A DNA stretch of 64,000 nt from an uncultured Pelagibacteraceae bacterium (GTDB lineage: Bacteria; Pseudomonadota; Alphaproteobacteria; Pelagibacterales; Pelagibacteraceae). Every line of letters starts with the position of its first letter. Position 1 is the first letter of the stretch. The stretch is taken from positions 1 through 64,000 of the forward strand of contig CACPPK010000003.1 of NCBI GenBank assembly GCA_902635845.1, written 5' to 3'. A program made the position numbers and the translations under genes. The notes beneath the pieces are model-generated. The model had not been told where the DNA came from. It did no database searches and worked only from the letters and a program-made list of their open reading frames with translations. Below are positions 19,970 through 63,090 of the stretch, piece after piece.

Positions 19970-20379
19970 TCATGCAAATTTAATTTATTATCTTTTTCAA
20001 TATTTTTTAAGATTTCGAAATTTTTTTGAGCGAAATTTTTTGGATCTAACAAATATAAACCATAATATGCTTTTACATTTAATTTATTTTTTTTTATTAA
20101 TTTAAGATAAATTTTTTTTGCATAATCAATTTTCCCAATTGATTGTTTTACAATCGCTAAATTTAAAAGTGCATTCGTAGAACTAGGATTTTTAATTAAA
20201 AATTTTTTATAGTAAGAAATGCTTTTATCAAATTGATTTAATTCAAAATAAATTAAACCCAAATAGAAAAAAATTCTAGGATCTGAGCAATTTTTTTTTT
20301 CTAGATAAAGAAAAATTTTCAAGGATTTATCGAATTTTTTTTCTTTTAAAAATCTCTGACCATCAATTAAATTCATCAA
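19948..20379 (-). CDS. TPR repeat protein, probably C-terminally truncated
   Basis: TPR units RIFFYLGLIYFELNQFDKSISYYKKFLIKNPSSTNALLNLAIVKQSIGKIDYAKKIYLKLIK. Confidence 0.7.
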   Translation of the reverse strand: MMNLIDGQRFLKEKKFDKSLKIFLYLEKKNCSDPRIFFYLGLIYFELNQFDKSISYYKKFLIKNPSSTNALLNLAIVKQSIGKIDYAKKIYLKLIKKNKLNVKAYYGLYLLDPKNFAQKNFEILKNIEKDNKLNLHDLSDIKD

Positions 20380-20426
20380 AATATAAACATATTGTTATTT
20401 TAAAAATAATTATTATCTTAATACAT

Positions 20427-21071
20427 ATGAAAAAAGAAGAATTACCAAAAACTATACCTATCTTTCCTTTAAGTAACTTTATAATTTTTCCAAAAACTAC
20501 TGTACCTTTAAATATTTTTGAGCCCAGGTATATTGATATGATCAATGACAGCATGAAATCAAACAAATTAATCGGTATGATTCAGCCAAAAAAAACTAAC
20601 AATGCAGAAGCTGTACCAAAATTACATGATGTTGGTTGCCTTGGAAAAATTACAAGTTTTAGAGAAACAGAGGACAATCGATTTTTAATTGAAATTAAAG
20701 GATTAATAAGATTTCAAAATATCAAAGAGATCAATACTGAAAATAAATATAGAACATTAGAAGTAGGATTTAGCAAATTTTACGATGATCTAAGTGGTAA
20801 AAAAGAAGATTTAAAATTTACCGACCTAAAATTAATTTTTAAAGATTTAAAAACTTTATTTGAAAGAAGAGGATTTATTATTAATTGGAGCGCATTAGAA
20901 AAACAAAGTCTCGATGAAACAATTAACGCTCTAGCTATGGCATCACCTTTTTCACTTGAAGAAAAACAAGTTTTATTAGAAGCTGAAAATTTAGATATAA
21001 GAAAAGATAAGATTTCTCAAATTTTAGAAACTTACACTTTTGATAATTTTGAAAATACAACGATTCAATAG
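20427..21071 (+). CDS. Lon N-terminal (LAN) domain protein
   Basis: IPIFPLSNFIIFPKTTVPLNIFEPRYIDMI, VGCLGKITSFRETEDNRFLIEIKGLIRF; no ATPase or protease domain. Confidence 0.85.
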   Translation: MKKEELPKTIPIFPLSNFIIFPKTTVPLNIFEPRYIDMINDSMKSNKLIGMIQPKKTNNAEAVPKLHDVGCLGKITSFRETEDNRFLIEIKGLIRFQNIKEINTENKYRTLEVGFSKFYDDLSGKKEDLKFTDLKLIFKDLKTLFERRGFIINWSALEKQSLDETINALAMASPFSLEEKQVLLEAENLDIRKDKISQILETYTFDNFENTTIQ

Positions 21072-21072
21072 A

Positions 21073-22146
21073 CTAAAATGTAATCCCTCTGTCAGCAATT
21101 TCTGTAAGTAATTTATTCAATGATGGATTATTCCCAACAAATTTAACATATTTGCTTATTGAGTTATTATTAAGTTTTCTTTCAAAATTAAAAAATTCAT
21201 AAATTAAATCTATTCCATTTGTAAAAATAAAATTTTTATGTCTAGTTTTTTTTTCAAATTCAGTATTAACTGAACTATCAATTGGTAATCCTAAATCAAT
21301 TTTATTTTTTATAATTTCAATTAAAATTTTAATATCCCTAATTGTCATATTGAAGCCTTGTCCTGCTAGTGGATGAATTCTATGAAGTAAATCACCGAAA
21401 GCTAAAATATTATTATTATAATATGACCTTAATACAAAAGACTTCAATTCAAAATAGGCTGGGTTTTCAATTTTTTTAATTTTATATTTAAAATTATACT
21501 TACGAATTAAATTTATCAGATCTTGATTTTTAATTAAAGAACCACTTATTGAATATACAATTGAAGTTTCATTTTTTGAAATTGGTAAAAATGCTAGAGG
21601 ACCAAATTTGGTAAATATTTGTGTTGCAATGTTATTTGGGATATTTTTATGTTTTATAATAGTAGTAAAAGCATAACTATTATACTTTTTTATGATTTTT
21701 TTATTAAAATATTTTTTTGTTAAAATACTTGAATAATCAGTATTTATTATAAGGTTATAATGTTTTAAATCTAAAAAGTTTTTTTTTAATTTAATTTTAT
21801 TAAAGTAGTTATTTAATATTAAACTTTTATTTAATTTCTCATACAATTCAAAATTTTTAATGATTGAAAAAAGTTGGTCTTTATTATTTTGAAAATTTAA
21901 TATTTTCTCATTTTTTAAATTATCAGTATAAATTTCAATTTTTTTTAGTTTCCAAATAATTTTTTCTATATTAATTATATTACTATTAAAATATTCAAAA
22001 TTGCTTTTTGATATACCAAGTGTCCTGGATTTGTTGATTTTTTTGTTAGTATTTGAATAACATAGATCAACATAGATTTTTTCATTAACTAAAGCTTTTG
22101 CTAAAGTTAAGGCTGACAGACCGGATCCAAAAATACAAACTCTCAT
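21073..22146 (-). CDS. UbiH/UbiF/COQ6-family FAD hydroxylase
   Basis: MRVCIFGSGLSALTLAKAL Rossmann motif and ILAFGDLLHRIHPLAGQGFNMTIRDIKIL. Start moved to M14 of the listed ORF. Confidence 0.8.
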   Translation of the reverse strand: MRVCIFGSGLSALTLAKALVNEKIYVDLCYSNTNKKINKSRTLGISKSNFEYFNSNIINIEKIIWKLKKIEIYTDNLKNEKILNFQNNKDQLFSIIKNFELYEKLNKSLILNNYFNKIKLKKNFLDLKHYNLIINTDYSSILTKKYFNKKIIKKYNSYAFTTIIKHKNIPNNIATQIFTKFGPLAFLPISKNETSIVYSISGSLIKNQDLINLIRKYNFKYKIKKIENPAYFELKSFVLRSYYNNNILAFGDLLHRIHPLAGQGFNMTIRDIKILIEIIKNKIDLGLPIDSSVNTEFEKKTRHKNFIFTNGIDLIYEFFNFERKLNNNSISKYVKFVGNNPSLNKLLTEIADRGITF

Positions 22147-22208
22147 ATTAATTTTAATTTTAACAACAAAAATTAGATGATACAAAGTGAATAAATTGAT
22201 TCATAGAA

Positions 22209-24293
22209 ATGGATATTAAAAAAACATCTAATTTAGTTATTAATTTTACATTAAGAAGACTTGCAGAAATATTAGGGATAATAGTGTCTTTAACAGGACT
22301 GTTCCTACTTGCGTCATTGTTAACCTATTCACCAGATGATCCTAATTTTATTTTTCCAGATAATGAAGAAATAAAAAATATTTTTGGATTTCAAGGAAGC
22401 TTTATTTCGGATTTATTTTTTCAATCTATAGGACTAATTTCTTATATATTTTCAATTACTTTAATTATAACTGGTATTAATATATCGGTTAAAAAAAATT
22501 TTTTCTTAATAATTGAAAATATTTTTTTTGCAATAATTTATACTATTCTAGGAACACTATTTCTTAGTCAATTTTATTCAGAAACTTTTACTTTCTACAT
22601 AAATGGAAACGGTGGTTTTGTTGGTTTATACCTGAAACAAACATTTTTAAGTTCATTAATATTAATTAACAAAACTATATTTTATTATATTTTCATAGCT
22701 TTAATTGTGATTTTATTTTTAATTAGTATAAATTTTCAACCTTTAAATTTTTATAATGTAGTTGAAAAATTTATTAGATTTTTATTTAAAAAAAACGAAA
22801 AAGTTTATACAGACAAGAGTGAAATTATAAATGAATATATACCTCAGGAAGAAATAAGAGATCTTATCCAAGAAGATTTGCCATTTATTAAAGCAGAAAA
22901 TAAAAAAGATAATAATGTAAAATTTAAATTACCAAACTTAGAATTACTAAAAAAACCAACAAAAAAAGATAAGGGAAATTTACAAAAAAACGAGGCAAGT
23001 GATCAGGAATTTTTAGAAAAAATTTTGTTAGATTTTGGTGTTAATGGTAAAATAAAAAAAATAAGTCACGGTCCAGTCGTTACTTTAAATGAATTTGAGC
23101 CAGCTGCAGGAGTTAAGGTATCAAAAATAATTAATCTGTCAGATGATATAGCAAGAAATACTAGTTCGGAGTCGGCAAGAATTTCTACAATACCTGGAAG
23201 TAGTACCATCGGCATTGAACTTCCTAATAATACAAGGGAGAATGTTTTTTTAAGCGAAATTTTGAATGACTCTGATTTTAAAAGAAAAGAAATTAAACTT
23301 CCAATTGCCTTAGGTAAAAGTATTTCAGGAGTTCCCATAGTAGGAGATTTATATTCTATGCCACATCTTTTAATTGCTGGTACAACAGGTTCTGGAAAAT
23401 CAGTTTGTATTAATACAATAATTTTGTCTCTTCTATATAGACACACTCCTGACAAATGTAAATTTATTTTGATAGATCCTAAAATGCTAGAACTTTCTAC
23501 TTATGAAGGAATACCTCACTTACTGTGCCCAGTTATAACGGAAGCAAAAAAAGCTGCATCTGTACTAGGTTGGGTTGTGAAGGAAATGGAAAGTAGATAC
23601 AGATTAATGACTAAAGAAGGAGTAAGAAATATTGATGGTTATAACTCTAAACACAAATTACCTATGCCATACATAGTGGTTGTTGTTGATGAGATGTCTG
23701 ATTTAATGCTTGTCGCAGGTAAGGAAATTGAGAATTATATCCAAAAGTTATCTCAAATGGCTAGGGCAGCGGGTATTCATATAATCATGGCCACACAAAG
23801 ACCAAGCGTAGATGTTATTACAGGCACAATAAAAGCAAATTTTCCAACAAGGATCTCTTTTCAGGTTACCTCAAAAATTGATAGCAGAACAATTCTTGGA
23901 GAACAAGGAGCAGAACAATTATTAGGTAAAGGAGATATGCTATACATGTCATCGGCAAATCGAATCGTAAGGATTCACGCACCATTCGTATCTGAAGATG
24001 AGATTGAAAAAATAAATAATTCATTAAGATCACAAGCTGAACCAGATTACGTAGACGAAATATTAAATTTTGCGGATGAAAAAGAAATTGGAGAAAATCA
24101 TAGTCAGGGTGAGAAAGATGAACTTTACAATCAAGCCATAGAAATAATTAGATCTGAAGGTAAAGCTTCAACATCCTTTTTACAAAGAAAACTCCAAATT
24201 GGATATAATAGAGCGGCTAGAATTATTGACATGATGGAAGCTGATGGAATAGTGAGCAAAGCTAATCACGTCGGTAAAAGAGATGTACTTTAA
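22209..24293 (+). CDS. ftsK: DNA translocase FtsK
   Basis: TM-rich N-terminus; LLIAGTTGSGKSVCINT; MATQRPSVDVITGTIKANFPTRISF; C-terminal gamma wHTH. Confidence 0.96.
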   Translation: MDIKKTSNLVINFTLRRLAEILGIIVSLTGLFLLASLLTYSPDDPNFIFPDNEEIKNIFGFQGSFISDLFFQSIGLISYIFSITLIITGINISVKKNFFLIIENIFFAIIYTILGTLFLSQFYSETFTFYINGNGGFVGLYLKQTFLSSLILINKTIFYYIFIALIVILFLISINFQPLNFYNVVEKFIRFLFKKNEKVYTDKSEIINEYIPQEEIRDLIQEDLPFIKAENKKDNNVKFKLPNLELLKKPTKKDKGNLQKNEASDQEFLEKILLDFGVNGKIKKISHGPVVTLNEFEPAAGVKVSKIINLSDDIARNTSSESARISTIPGSSTIGIELPNNTRENVFLSEILNDSDFKRKEIKLPIALGKSISGVPIVGDLYSMPHLLIAGTTGSGKSVCINTIILSLLYRHTPDKCKFILIDPKMLELSTYEGIPHLLCPVITEAKKAASVLGWVVKEMESRYRLMTKEGVRNIDGYNSKHKLPMPYIVVVVDEMSDLMLVAGKEIENYIQKLSQMARAAGIHIIMATQRPSVDVITGTIKANFPTRISFQVTSKIDSRTILGEQGAEQLLGKGDMLYMSSANRIVRIHAPFVSEDEIEKINNSLRSQAEPDYVDEILNFADEKEIGENHSQGEKDELYNQAIEIIRSEGKASTSFLQRKLQIGYNRAARIIDMMEADGIVSKANHVGKRDVL

Positions 24294-35444: not shown

Positions 35445-36025
35445 AGTGAGTTTATATATTCCTTAATTTTTTTTACGGGTAGGCCCATAATTGTATCTTC
35501 GTCTCCCTCTATGCTTGTGAACAGATTTCTGCCCTCACCCTCTATTTGATAAACATTGTATGCATAAAGAGTTGTATCAGGTATTTTAGATAAGTAATTT
35601 TTAAGCTCATCATCAGATAAATTTTTCATTGAAAGTTTGGCTTTATCAGTATGGTTCCAGATCATCGATCCGTTTTTTGATACGCAAACAGAACTTATTA
35701 AAAAATGAGATTTACCATTAAGTTTCTTTAATATTTTCATCGCCTCTCCTCGAGTTTCTGGCTTAGATATTAATTCACCGTTCAAATCTATCACGCTGTC
35801 TGCTCCTAAAACGATTTCATCAGTTTTTTTCATGCTTACTTTGTTTGCCTTTAATTCAGCTAGATTTTTTGAAATTAACTCTGGACTTGCTTTCTCTTTT
35901 AATAAACTTAATTTAACAATATCCTCATCTACATTCGATGGTTCAACAACATTTTTAATGTTATTTTTATCTAAAATTTCTTTTCGTACTTTACTCTTTG
36001 ATGCAAGAATTATTTTACTTGGCAT
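35441..36025 (-). CDS. maf: Maf-like nucleotide pyrophosphatase
   Basis: IILASKSKVRKEIL, VLGADSVIDLNGELISKPETRGEA, EGDEDTIMGLPV. Confidence 0.94.
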   Translation of the reverse strand: MPSKIILASKSKVRKEILDKNNIKNVVEPSNVDEDIVKLSLLKEKASPELISKNLAELKANKVSMKKTDEIVLGADSVIDLNGELISKPETRGEAMKILKKLNGKSHFLISSVCVSKNGSMIWNHTDKAKLSMKNLSDDELKNYLSKIPDTTLYAYNVYQIEGEGRNLFTSIEGDEDTIMGLPVKKIKEYINSL

Positions 36026-36842
36026 TGTTTAAATATATTTCGTGAATTTTGATAATCGATGCTGCGGTTTCCTCAACAGATTTTCTTGTAACATCTATTA
36101 GGGGCCATTTATATTTTTGAAAAGTTTTTTTTGCATCTAAAACTTCTTTTTTTATGTTTTCTAGATCTGTATATTTTATGTTTTCTGTTTCTCTTAATGA
36201 ATTCATTCTATTTTTTCTTAAATCAGCCAGCCTTTCAGGTTCTGTGCTTAATCCGACAACACAGGAAAGCTTGGGATTTTGCTTTAATTTCTCTGGTAAT
36301 GAATTTTCATTTACCAGGGGTATATTTGATGTTTTAAATCCTTTGTTTGCAAGATATATGGATGTCGGCGTTTTACTTGTTCTGCTTACTCCAACTAGAA
36401 TAATATCTGATTTGTCTATTTCGTTAATTAAGTTTCCATCGTCGTGGTTCATTGTGAATTGAATTGCTTCTATCCTGTCATAATACTCCTCATTTAAAAT
36501 ATGTTGGCCGCTTGGTTCGTGGGTTGCTTTTTGATTAAGAATTTTTGAGAAATTTAGAATTAAATTTCCCAATACACCGAAACATGGAATTTTTTTGTCT
36601 TCACTCACATTTGCTAAATACTTAGCTAAGTTATTATCAACAATGGTATATAAAATTATTGCGTTTGTATTTTTTTCTGCGTCTTCTAAAATTTTTAAAA
36701 TTTGATTTTCTGTCCTGGTAAAAGAATATGAATGAATTTTATATTCTATATTTATAAATTGAGCTTTTAGAGCCAAAAATATTCTATCTAAAGTCTCGCC
36801 CGTTGAATCTGAAATCAAGTATATTTGATATGTATTATTCAT
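36015..36842 (-). CDS. ppsR: Pyruvate,phosphate dikinase / PEP synthase regulatory protein (DUF299)
   Basis: YLISDSTGETLDRIFLALKAQF; IILVGVSRTSKTPTSIYLANKGFK. Confidence 0.93.
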   Translation of the reverse strand: MNNTYQIYLISDSTGETLDRIFLALKAQFINIEYKIHSYSFTRTENQILKILEDAEKNTNAIILYTIVDNNLAKYLANVSEDKKIPCFGVLGNLILNFSKILNQKATHEPSGQHILNEEYYDRIEAIQFTMNHDDGNLINEIDKSDIILVGVSRTSKTPTSIYLANKGFKTSNIPLVNENSLPEKLKQNPKLSCVVGLSTEPERLADLRKNRMNSLRETENIKYTDLENIKKEVLDAKKTFQKYKWPLIDVTRKSVEETAASIIKIHEIYLNNAK

Positions 36843-37109
36843 GAATAAAATGTTAATAAATATGTATTATTTTAATTAAATTTAACAATTTAAAATTTCT
36901 TAAAATAAGCTTGTAAAACCTAGTATTTATTAACAATAATAATAAATAGGTCAAAACAATCCACAAAAAATGAAATAATTAAAAAAGCTTCATTTTTCAC
37001 AATTTTAGTTGCTTAAGATGTTAGTAAATTGTGAATATAATGTTCATAAAAATTAATCACCTTTATTCACAGGATATATTAATACTACAATAATTTATAA
37101 AGTTTTTAT
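36843..37109. other. oriC: Putative chromosomal replication origin (oriC)
   Basis: Longest non-coding gap in the window, between DUF299 and hemE; TTATTCACA (37063-37071, 9/9 to TTATNCACA), TTTTTCACA (36993-37001), reverse ATATTCACA (37030-37038), weaker CAATCCACA (36957-36965); AT-rich; genes diverge from it. Confidence 0.7.
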
Positions 37110-38114
37110 ATGAAACCTTTAGACAAAGTAATTATTAACAAAGATACCTCATTTAATCCTATATGGATTATGAGGCAAGCAGGAAGATATCTTCCAGAAT
37201 TTAGAGAAATTAGAAAAGAAAACCCTAATTTTATTAATTTATGTTTAAATGATGAGCTATCATCAAAGATAACTTTACAACCTTTAAAGAGATTTGATCT
37301 AGATGCTGCAATAATATTTTCAGATATCTTGATGCTTCCTTATGGATTGGGTCAAAAAGTAGAGTTTGAGAAAAATTTTGGACCAAAGTTAGGAGAAATA
37401 AATCTAAATAAAATAGCCAAGATTGATGAAATTGACTTTGTGGAAAAAATACATCGTGTATATAAGGCAATAAAAAAAGTTAGCTCAGACCCCATTTTAA
37501 ATAATAAAAATACTATAGGTTTTGTTGGTGCTCCATGGACATTATTAGTTTATATGATTAATCTACAATCGCCTAAAAAAAATTTAAAAAAGGATTTTTT
37601 TAAGGATGAATTTTTAATAAATAGAATTTTATTAATCATTGAAAAATTTTTAAAAGTACATATCAAAAACCAGGTTGATAATGGTGCGAACATAATCCAA
37701 ATATTTGATAGTTGGGCAGGCTTATTAGATGAAAAAGATTTACCAAATTATGTTTATTCGCCAACTCTAAATTTAGTTGATTTTGTAAAATCTTTAAATG
37801 TACCAGTAATATGTTTCCCTAGAGAAATAAAAAATTATAAAGAATTTTGTGAAATTATTAAACCTGATGTTGTTAGTGTTGATTATAATGTTGACCCAAA
37901 AAAAATACTTAGGGATATTAAAATACCTATTCAAGGTGGGTTAGACCCTAAAATTTTATTAACAGACAAAGAAACTTTAAAAAAAGAAGCTTCTAAATAT
38001 TTGGAAATCTTTAAAGATCATCCGTATATATTTAATCTTGGACATGGTATTTTACCTGAGACTAATCCAGAAATGGTAGAAAACTTAATCAAAATTGTAA
38101 AAGATTTTAAATGA
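37110..38114 (+). CDS. hemE: Uroporphyrinogen decarboxylase
   Basis: PIWIMRQAGRYLPEFRE; AAIIFSDILMLPYGLG; IFDSWAG; LGHGILPETNPE. Confidence 0.97.
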   Translation: MKPLDKVIINKDTSFNPIWIMRQAGRYLPEFREIRKENPNFINLCLNDELSSKITLQPLKRFDLDAAIIFSDILMLPYGLGQKVEFEKNFGPKLGEINLNKIAKIDEIDFVEKIHRVYKAIKKVSSDPILNNKNTIGFVGAPWTLLVYMINLQSPKKNLKKDFFKDEFLINRILLIIEKFLKVHIKNQVDNGANIIQIFDSWAGLLDEKDLPNYVYSPTLNLVDFVKSLNVPVICFPREIKNYKEFCEIIKPDVVSVDYNVDPKKILRDIKIPIQGGLDPKILLTDKETLKKEASKYLEIFKDHPYIFNLGHGILPETNPEMVENLIKIVKDFK

Positions 38115-44261: not shown

Positions 44262-44905
44262 TGGATCAAGAAATTTTAAATTCTTACTCTAGAATCAACC
44301 ACTTAAATGTTTCACGTGAAACATTTTTGGACTTTGAAAACTATATATCCTTGATTCTCGAAAAAAATAAAAAAATCAACATAATTAGCCAAAATACAGT
44401 GTCAAAAAAGACTATAATTGAGCGTCATATTATAGATTCTGCACAAATTATTGATTTTGTTGATTTAAATAGTAATACAACTACAGATATAGGTTCAGGA
44501 GGTGGTTTTCCAGGTATTATTGTGGCAATCATACTAAAAAATATGAAAAATAACATGTATGTTCATTTATATGAAAAAAGCTACCATAAAAGCCATTTTT
44601 TAAAGGAAGTGTCAGAAAAATTAAAATTAAAGACAAAAGTTTTTCAAAAAAATATTTTTGAAATAAAAAATTTAGAAACAGGTACAATAATGTCTAGAGC
44701 ATTTAAACCAATGCCGGTAGTTTTAGATTTAGTATATGAAAATTTTTCAAAATATAAAAATTTAATTTTCTTTATGGGAAAAAATGGAAAAAAAGTTTTT
44801 GAAAGTTCCAAAAAAAATTGGGAGCTGGAATTTATAGAAAAGAAAAGTTTAACAAGTGAAGACTCTTTTTTAATAAATATTAAAAAAATTAAAAAAAAAA
44901 ATTAA
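44261..44905 (+). CDS. rsmG: 16S rRNA methyltransferase RsmG (GidB)
   Basis: DIGSGGGFPGIIVAI; position between mnmG and parA. Confidence 0.94.
   Translation: MDQEILNSYSRINHLNVSRETFLDFENYISLILEKNKKINIISQNTVSKKTIIERHIIDSAQIIDFVDLNSNTTTDIGSGGGFPGIIVAIILKNMKNNMYVHLYEKSYHKSHFLKEVSEKLKLKTKVFQKNIFEIKNLETGTIMSRAFKPMPVVLDLVYENFSKYKNLIFFMGKNGKKVFESSKKNWELEFIEKKSLTSEDSFLINIKKIKKKN
44305..44326. promoter_or_regulatory. parS: parS centromere site (ParB binding)
   Basis: AAATGTTTCACGTGAAACATTT, 22-bp perfect palindrome containing the 16-bp parS consensus TGTTTCACGTGAAACA. Confidence 0.95.
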
Positions 44906-44926: not shown

Positions 44927-45721
44927 ATGCAAATAATTTCAGTTATAAATCAAAAGGGTGGGGTCGGAAAAACTACCACGGTGATAAATCTTGCTGCTGG
45001 TTTATCTCAGATAGATAAAAAAATTTTAGTAATTGACCTAGATCCGCAAGGCAACGCTACCACAGGTCTGGGATTAACTAATATGGGTAGCTCAAGTGAC
45101 ACAATCTATGGAGTATTGAATGGAACTAGAGAAATCAGTGGAGTTATCAAAAAAACACAGTTCAAAAATTTAGATATTATCACATCCAACGTAGATTTAT
45201 CAGGTTTAGAAGTAGAGACTGCTGATGACAGTAACAGAGCTTTTATACTAAAGACTAAATTAGCCGCGTATTTAAATGATTCTAGAGGGCTATATGATTA
45301 TATCTTGATTGATTGTCCGCCTTCATTGAGCTTGTTGACAATAATGGCACTTGTAAGCTCAAACTCATTATTGGTACCACTCCAAACTGAATTTTTTGCT
45401 TTAGAGGGATTAACGCAGCTAATGACAACAATCGAAAGGATAAAAGTACGTTTAAATCCTGATTTGAAAATTAGGGGTATACTTCTAACCATGTATGACA
45501 AAAGAAATAAGCTTTCGTCACAAGTTGAGAAAGAAGCGAGGGATTATTTTAGTGAAAAAGTTTATTCAACAGTCATACCAAGGAATGTCAGATTGTCAGA
45601 AGCACCCTCACATGGTATGCCAGTATTAATCTATGACAAAACATGTCCTGGAAGTAAATCTTATTTTAGTTTTACTGATGAGTTTATAAGCCAAGAGACA
45701 AAAGTTGGAAGTGCTGCTTAA
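44927..45721 (+). CDS. parA: Chromosome partitioning ATPase ParA
   Basis: IISVINQKGGVGKTTTVINLAAGL; DLDPQGNATTGLG. Confidence 0.96.
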   Translation: MQIISVINQKGGVGKTTTVINLAAGLSQIDKKILVIDLDPQGNATTGLGLTNMGSSSDTIYGVLNGTREISGVIKKTQFKNLDIITSNVDLSGLEVETADDSNRAFILKTKLAAYLNDSRGLYDYILIDCPPSLSLLTIMALVSSNSLLVPLQTEFFALEGLTQLMTTIERIKVRLNPDLKIRGILLTMYDKRNKLSSQVEKEARDYFSEKVYSTVIPRNVRLSEAPSHGMPVLIYDKTCPGSKSYFSFTDEFISQETKVGSAA

Positions 45722-46563
45722 TGGATAAAATAAAAAAAGGGCTAGGAAGAGGACTGTCATCATTGATTGGAGAAACAAAAGTTGAGACTCAAAAAAATCA
45801 AGTATCAATTGGAGACTTGGTTCCAAATAAGTATCAACCAAGAAAAATATTTGACGAAGCTAGTTTAGAAGATCTAACCAATTCGATTAAAGAAAGAGGA
45901 ATGATACAGCCTATAATTGTTAGAAATTCAAATAATAATAGATCTAAGTTTGAAATAATTGCTGGCGAGAGAAGATGGCTAGCAGCACAAAGAGCTGGTC
46001 TGCACAATGTTCCTGTTGTCATAACAGAAGCAGATGACTTAAAATCTTTAGAATTTGCTATTGTAGAAAATGTTCAAAGGCATGACCTAAATCCTCTAGA
46101 AGAAGCGCAAGGATATAAAAGATTAATAGACGAATTTTCTTATGATCAAGAAAAGGTGTCAAAGTTCATTGGTAAGAGCAGGAGCCATATAACTAATTCT
46201 TTGCGACTCCTTACTTTACCAGATGATGTAATCAAATTAATTGAAAATCAAAAATTAACTGCAGGTCATGCAAAAGTTTTAGTAGGCCTTGAAAATGCAA
46301 GTTTTGTAGCATCAAAAATTATTGAAAAAAAACTTTCAGTAAGACAAGCTGAAAGCTTTGTACAGATTTTTAAAAAGAAAAAACAAAAATCAAAAAATGC
46401 AAAAGATACTAATATTATCGCTCTCGAATTATCTGTATCAAATAAAATAGGATTAAATGTTGATATTCAAAATAATAAAAGAAATAAAGGGAAAATAAGC
46501 TTTGAATATAAGGATTTAGATCAACTAAATAAGATAATAGATATAATAAAGTCTAATTATTAG
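45721..46563 (+). CDS. parB: Chromosome partitioning protein ParB
   Basis: KGLGRGLSSLIG; ERRWLAAQRAG; ENVQRHDLNPLEEAQGYKRL. Confidence 0.96.
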   Translation: MDKIKKGLGRGLSSLIGETKVETQKNQVSIGDLVPNKYQPRKIFDEASLEDLTNSIKERGMIQPIIVRNSNNNRSKFEIIAGERRWLAAQRAGLHNVPVVITEADDLKSLEFAIVENVQRHDLNPLEEAQGYKRLIDEFSYDQEKVSKFIGKSRSHITNSLRLLTLPDDVIKLIENQKLTAGHAKVLVGLENASFVASKIIEKKLSVRQAESFVQIFKKKKQKSKNAKDTNIIALELSVSNKIGLNVDIQNNKRNKGKISFEYKDLDQLNKIIDIIKSNY

Positions 46564-62487: not shown

Positions 62488-63090
62488 ATGTCAAAACAAA
62501 AAATTAATAAATTGCTCATTGGTACTAATAACAAGGGTAAATTACGTGAAATCAAGAATATGTTGCCGAAAAGCATTAAAATTCATTCTACATCTGAATT
62601 TAATCTCAAGAGCCCAGTTGAAAATGGAAAGACATTTAAAGAAAATTCATTAATCAAATCAAAATATTTTTCAAAAAAAACAGGATTATTATGTTTGGCT
62701 GATGACTCGGGTTTAGAGATAGATTTTTTAGGTAAAAGTCCTGGAATTTATTCTGCAAGGTGGGGTGGTAAGCACGGAGATTTTGGCAAAGCTATAAGTA
62801 GAGTTTATAGAGAGCTAAATAAAAAAGATAGAAACTGGAAACTTAAAAAAATAAAAGCAAGATTTATTTGTGCACTTTCAATTACATATATTAATAAAAT
62901 AATTGCCTGTGTTTTGGGAAAAGTTGAGGGTTATATTTCACATGAACCAAAAGGAAAAAATGGATTTGGCTATGATCCGATTTTTATCCCTTTAAAAAAA
63001 AGAAAAACTTTTGGAGAAATGAAGCCATCCCAAAAATATAAGATGGATCATAGGTACCAAGCCTTTAAAAAAATTAAAAAATTTCTATAA
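62488..63090 (+). CDS. rdgB: XTP/dITP diphosphatase (RdgB/HAM1)
   Basis: LLIGTNNKGKLREIKNML; ENSLIKSKYFSKKTGLLCLADDSGLEIDFL; PGIYSARWGG; GFGYDPIFIP. Confidence 0.95.
   Translation: MSKQKINKLLIGTNNKGKLREIKNMLPKSIKIHSTSEFNLKSPVENGKTFKENSLIKSKYFSKKTGLLCLADDSGLEIDFLGKSPGIYSARWGGKHGDFGKAISRVYRELNKKDRNWKLKKIKARFICALSITYINKIIACVLGKVEGYISHEPKGKNGFGYDPIFIPLKKRKTFGEMKPSQKYKMDHRYQAFKKIKKFL

Follow-up and report, generated by a model that had tools for sequence, protein, structure and literature searches.

Results

An AT-rich gap lies between the divergent genes ppsR and hemE

The stretch of DNA analysed here, which we call the window, comprises 64,000 nucleotides from an uncultured member of the Pelagibacteraceae. 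At positions 36843–37109 it contains an intergenic gap of 267 bp with a GC content of 16.9%, compared with 28.7% for the window as a whole. The left boundary gene is ppsR (DUF299/COG1806; 36015–36842, minus strand), which a profile search assigned to the Kinase-PPPase family (PF03618, E = 7.5e-89), and the right boundary gene is hemE, encoding uroporphyrinogen decarboxylase (PF01208 URO-D, E = 2.7e-85; 37110–38114, plus strand). The two genes are divergently oriented: dnaQ, coaE, aroE, maf and ppsR all run leftward on one side, and hemE, hemH, a hemJ-like gene, rho, trmE, gidA, gidB, parA and parB all run rightward on the other (the names hemH, hemJ, rho, trmE and gid come from reading of the sequence and from synteny). 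Composition, profile search and ORF directions thus bear out the original prediction as to the coordinates of the gap, its AT-richness, its flanking genes and their directions. The boundary between hemE and COG1806 is a known origin site in Caulobacter and Rickettsia (PMC1914354), and the gap has the intergenic position beside hemE and/or COG1806 (ppsR) that characterizes a hemE-type alphaproteobacterial oriC.

A partitioning locus lies on the hemE side. The genes parA (44927–45721) and parB (45721–46563), both on the plus strand, were identified by profile search, and a parS site without mismatches, TGTTTCACGTGAAACA, is found within gidB at 44308–44323 (plus strand), approximately 7 kb from the gap. 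Among the relatives sampled, those with the start of gidB in their stretch carry this 16-mer at the same position, with no more than one mismatch. A second parS-like match, TATTTCACATGAACCA, at 62934–62949 carries three mismatches and is near chance expectation. Elsewhere in the window, positions 20001–23000 are also very AT-rich (about 20.5% GC in 2-kb windows). Within the gap itself, we found no Rfam match to a structured RNA and no terminator-like sites.

The gap carries a conserved cluster of DnaA boxes

The original prediction listed four DnaA boxes, all of which are present in the gap where it placed them and with the mismatch counts it gave: the weak box CAATCCACA at 36957–36965 (+), the box-like TTTTTCACA at 36993–37001 (+), ATATTCACA at 37030–37038 (−) and TTATTCACA at 37063–37071 (+). 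It missed three exact TTATNAACA boxes. One reads TTATTAACA at the left edge (36851–36859, −), another has the same sequence in the middle of the gap (36927–36935, +), and the third, TTATGAACA, lies at 37041–37049 (−), 11 bp from the 37030 box. Additionally, a degenerate box, TTAATCACC, at 37053–37061 (+) stands in tandem with the 37063 box in a 10 bp register. The description of the gap as holding few degenerate DnaA boxes has to be revised: the boxes outnumber those listed originally, and most of the conserved ones have an A for C at position 6.

Six sites in the gap lie within one mismatch of TTATNCACA, where dinucleotide shuffles predict 0.71, and none of 500 shuffles reached six. Exact matches to TTATNMACA number four against 0.17 expected (0 of 500 shuffles). 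Together these counts exclude chance as the source of the clustering. The gap is the densest box cluster within the window, and the homologous gap is the densest cluster of exact boxes in three of four sampled genomes, the exception being G005. Exact TTATN[AC]ACA occurs at 10.1 per kb in the gaps of the family versus 0.77 per kb in other AT-rich gaps. The dominant conserved class of box, TTATNAACA, occurs at 8.2 per kb versus 0.59 in other AT-rich ORF-free segments, a difference of about 14-fold.

Conservation was assessed in 59 genomes of the family, whose HemE proteins range down to 45% identity with that of the window. The gap is 260–290 bp long in these genomes, with one exception of 342 bp, and its conserved columns coincide with the boxes at 36851, 36927, 37030/37041 and 37063. 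The gap and its main boxes are conserved in these 59 genomes and in 79 further close single-cell genomes. Conservation peaks at the 37063 box (99.9% in 82 close relatives); the 36851 and 36927 boxes are conserved family-wide, and the 37030 box has the family version TTATNMAC. Position 6 is A in 80–88% of the family at the 36851 and 36927 boxes; the 37063 box has C there in 54% and A in 42%. The main boxes are thus conserved in relatives, and none of the sequence-based outcomes that would have refuted the original prediction was observed. The weak 36957 box is kept in close relatives only, and the 36993 site is private to the window genome: in most of the 82 distinct close relatives the sequence at that place is TTTTAAACA. 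Family-wide, the three boxes missed originally show stronger conservation than two of those listed. A DnaA-box cluster above chance and conserved in relatives is a further feature that the gap shares with hemE-type alphaproteobacterial origins.

In several SAR11 genera the recognition helix of DnaA has SNRDHTT or ANRDHTT in place of GGRDHTT (L051 = G000:C12; L257–L283). We considered a changed helix as the reason for the A at position 6 and rejected it: within the subset of sequences compared, genera g3 and g4, with SG or TG, also use AACA boxes and there is no clean correlation.

The strand switch falls at hemE rather than at dnaA

Because the genome of the window is a draft of 30 contigs at 76% completeness, GC skew was measured in relatives, namely four complete SAR11 genomes of the same genus, each sampled as twenty 20-kb stretches. 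Inside the window alone, skew mainly follows gene orientation and cannot decide the matter. In the four genomes, raw GC skew is negative to the left of hemE (mean −0.04 to −0.07) and positive to the right (mean +0.04 to +0.07), and the best half-splits by raw skew and by coding orientation fall at most 0.04 genome lengths from hemE. By skew, each of the four genomes splits best at 0 or −0.02. Detrended cumulative skew reaches its minimum at −0.002 genome lengths relative to hemE in the pool and in every genome except G011, whose cumulative minimum lies at +0.094. When gene strand is corrected for, the pooled fit places the switch at −0.02 and its strand term is small (0.024); for G026 alone, this fit prefers +0.16. 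The skew check proposed with the original prediction therefore came out in its favour, with a switch at hemE in four complete relatives, as for a hemE-type alphaproteobacterial oriC, and no minimum elsewhere in the pool.

An origin beside dnaA-dnaN, as in many bacteria, would agree with the practice of starting the SAR11 map there: a published SAR11 comparison begins its alignments at dnaA and mentions origin-flanking regions (PMC12421898). Coarse maps would not separate the two positions, since most complete genomes have dnaA on the same arm as hemE, 61–74 kb away. In the complete genomes of the same genus dnaA is about 61–65 kb to the right, and with skew splitting best at 0 or −0.02 the switch favours hemE over dnaA. 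Indeed, the split at hemE scores better than that at +0.04, near dnaA, in all four genomes. Reading by eye the 381 bp upstream of dnaA revealed no box cluster like that of the gap. We therefore regard an origin at dnaA as highly improbable.

A box, a short spacer and period-3 triplets adjoin hemE

The conserved core of the gap consists of the 37063 box, a 4-nt spacer and triplets of period 3 (N-T-A) that end beside hemE. In the window the spacer is GGAT (37072–37075, +), and it is followed by the triplets ATA TTA ATA CTA CAA (37076–37090, +), a DnaA-trio-like series and the predicted unwinding site. On the complementary strand these read 3'-TAT AAT TAT GAT GTT-5', matching a 3'-NAT-5' DnaA-trio pattern; the consensus DnaA-trio is 3'-GAT-5' (PMC6669920; PMC8287927). 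A module of box, spacer and trios drives DnaA-dependent unwinding in seven species (PMC8287927). This module, the basal unwinding system (BUS), is recognized in sequence by one or more DnaA boxes, a spacer of at most 16 bp and at least three consecutive 3'-NAN-5' trios. The window, with TTATTCACA-GGAT-ATA TTA ATA CTA, has four consecutive trios. Many close relatives have CAA as their third triplet, and there the strict rule of three consecutive trios is broken. At the same place, the sister family f2 has a textbook ACTACTACTACC. The core thus matches the BUS in sequence and is predicted to act as an unwinding site.

It could be argued that the origin is in the gap but that the triplets are chance AT-rich sequence, with opening at another AT-rich stretch that lacks DnaA-trios. 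The gap is 83% AT throughout, simple shuffles yield similar NTA runs, and CAA triplets occur in many relatives. A run-length shuffle test for NTA triplets proved to have no power in DNA this AT-rich and was replaced by a test of column conservation. Across the 59 genomes, A is found at offsets 7, 10, 13 and 16 after the box in 93, 90, 92 and 100%, respectively, mostly preceded by T, while the neighbouring out-of-phase columns vary. The mean frequency of A is 0.90 in phase versus 0.43 and 0.28 out of phase (column permutation P = 0.0013). Neither this phasing nor the near absence of G from the top strand of the triplet region (1.2% in the 59 genomes) fits chance triplets, and near-perfect ACT/CTA repeats stand at the same place in the sister family. 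Chance triplets are thus an unlikely explanation, if one to be taken seriously, and we favour a DnaA-trio-like unwinding site.

Mixed CTA/CAA runs recur in the last 95 nt before hemE across the Alphaproteobacteria (L300–L327; for instance CTACTACAACAACTATA in L307 and CTACCACCACCACCACC in L323). The longest C[TA]A run is 3–5 at 8 of 27 other alphaproteobacterial hemE edges and never exceeds 2 on the opposite strand, with a reversed-sequence control reaching 4. The authors of the BUS survey suspected the existence of trios without the middle adenine (PMC8287927). It is only suggestive that these class-wide runs are non-canonical DnaA-trios, and we put them forward as candidates for such trios.

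The element persists where hemE or ppsR has left

Two natural experiments separate the gap from its boundary genes. In genus g2 (G001, G007), hemE-hemH is gone from the locus and ppsR faces rho, with a remote HemE-like match elsewhere. The gap in this genus (L252, L253; about positions 2284–2636) is 353 bp long and retains boxes and triplets, including the left inverted box TGTTTATAA and a right block reading TTATAAACA-TGAC-CTA ATA ACA AAA CTA. In sister family f2, ppsR was not detectable in the 13 genomes searched. There, maf faces hemE across 271–281 bp (L286–L289, L292–L294), and the gap carries C-type boxes and, at the hemE edge, CACAGG followed by ACAACTACTACTACTACC-like repeats, which are canonical ACT/CTA trios.

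These arrangements bear on a rival reading, in which the gap serves ppsR and hemE solely as a divergent promoter region, its boxes are DnaA-regulated promoter elements and the origin lies elsewhere. Both genes do need promoters in the gap, and DnaA doubles as a transcription factor in other bacteria. Promoter-like matches exist, such as TTCACA-N17-AATAAT overlapping the last box and the triplets, but their number is at the level of shuffles (5 versus 4.3). The gap with its boxes and triplets stays where hemE-hemH is gone; where ppsR is gone, boxes and trios still occur in a gap of the same size. Because the DNA element remains when either gene leaves, it is not explained by a plain hemE or ppsR promoter; additionally, the skew switch falls at the gap. 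A region with promoter function alone is accordingly very unlikely.

CtrA and CcrM sites are missing from the gap

The CtrA and CcrM queries were based on the Caulobacter proteins, with three other alphaproteobacterial genomes as positive controls. No CtrA ortholog was found in the Pelagibacterales searched, in which the best receiver match reached at most 42% identity versus 77–85% in the three controls. In G000 the best match adjoins phoU and pstB and is therefore PhoB-like. Likewise, Brilli et al. found no ctrA ortholog in Pelagibacter (PMC2877005). CtrA sites of the form TTAA-N7-TTAA are absent from the window gap and occur at chance level in the 59 family gaps (20 versus 16.2±3.9 in shuffles). 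Among CtrA-like sites with spacers of 6, 7 or 8, only spacer 6 exceeds shuffles (31 versus 15). Thus, neither the CtrA-site enrichment nor the ctrA gene of a CtrA-regulated Cori was found. The IHF consensus, another element of a Caulobacter-type Cori, has no match in the window gap; over both strands of the 59 gaps there are 14 matches, weakly above shuffles.

In contrast to CtrA, CcrM is encoded in all Pelagibacterales searched (60–67% identity). Its site, GANTC, occurs once in the 59 family gaps (16.4 kb), against 10.1 expected from dinucleotide shuffles, 16.7 from base composition outside boxes and 24.5 from AT-rich ORF-free segments of the same genus, all of these being counts over related genomes that are not independent. 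The window gap, 79 further close gaps and 11 f2 gaps contain no GANTC, and the depletion ends at the gap edges. The corresponding hemE-ppsR gaps of other Alphaproteobacteria hold 56 sites, distributed over 22 of 27 gaps. The Caulobacter origin has several GANTC sites, and intergenic enrichment of GANTC is general among orders that bear CcrM (PMC3973325). One reservation about the depletion is that CTNAG, too, is scarce in the family gaps (3), although f2 does not share this (6 in 11 gaps).

Discussion

Skew, conservation, synteny and parS support the original prediction that the gap is probably the SAR11-type origin. With a probability of roughly 0.9, we conclude that it is the chromosomal origin of SAR11 (Pelagibacterales), opened by DnaA at the 37063 box and the adjoining triplets, with neither CtrA control nor a CcrM site. 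In terms of sequence, it would represent an alphaproteobacterial oriC in a DnaA-centred, GANTC-free variant, and thus probably a start site of uncommon simplicity.

The closest parallel is Cori of Caulobacter crescentus and other hemE-COG1806 origins, which share the boundary genes, an AT-rich intergenic site, DnaA boxes and, as in the window, parS/parAB on the hemE side. In contrast to Cori, the SAR11 gap is shorter (267 bp), it lacks CtrA-site enrichment, a CtrA gene, an IHF-consensus match and GANTC, and most of its conserved boxes have A at position 6. With the BUS of Bacillus subtilis and other bacteria it shares tandem boxes, a short spacer and period-3 trios on the complementary strand (PMC8287927, PMC6669920). 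It differs from the BUS in that its triplets are mostly ATA/TTA/CTA and often CAA, so that the middle base of the complementary strand is not always A, and in its 4-nt spacer. Wolbachia, Ehrlichia and Anaplasma, also alphaproteobacteria with small genomes, have a short AT-rich origin beside hemE (hemE/COG1253), where one boundary gene has been swapped, as it has in the SAR11 sister family and genus g2 (PMC1914354). Those origins were mostly predicted with CtrA and IHF sites, which the SAR11 gap lacks.

We propose that DnaA would bind a short array of mostly TTATNAACA-type boxes, with one inverted box next to ppsR, one forward box midway and, close to hemE, an inverted pair together with a forward tandem. 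The rightmost box (37063–37071) may load DnaA via the 4-nt spacer onto the N-T-A triplets (37076–37090), where DnaA would hold the complementary strand single-stranded. The AT-rich DNA adjoining hemE would then open and helicases would load for bidirectional replication, after which ParB on parS, 7 kb away, would move the new origin. Because the origin has no CtrA control and no CcrM target site, initiation is probably controlled mainly through DnaA. A bolder reading, to which we give even odds, is that the Pelagibacterales lost CtrA, kept CcrM and purged CcrM sites specifically from the origin. Initiation would then be insulated from both controls and would depend on DnaA alone, acting on AACA-type boxes and a mixed NTA/CAA trio.

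Our literature search, with most subscription journals outside its coverage, found no description of a SAR11 origin; DoriC-type prediction databases may already list the location. Compared with the published work found, three things are new: the architecture of the SAR11 origin, its A-type boxes, and its exclusion of CcrM sites. A precise SAR11 origin allows estimates of replication rate from metagenome read depth to be anchored correctly; published maps start at dnaA, some 63 kb away. The gap is also a small, well-bounded DNA segment with a named predicted unwinding site, both open to tests in vitro. With CtrA and GANTC sites missing, a long-standing question becomes testable, namely how streamlined SAR11 cells time replication when they lack the standard alphaproteobacterial circuit, and what role CcrM has in SAR11 if not at the origin. 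If CcrM sites were indeed purged, initiation in the most abundant bacteria of the ocean would escape both master regulators of the alphaproteobacterial cell cycle.
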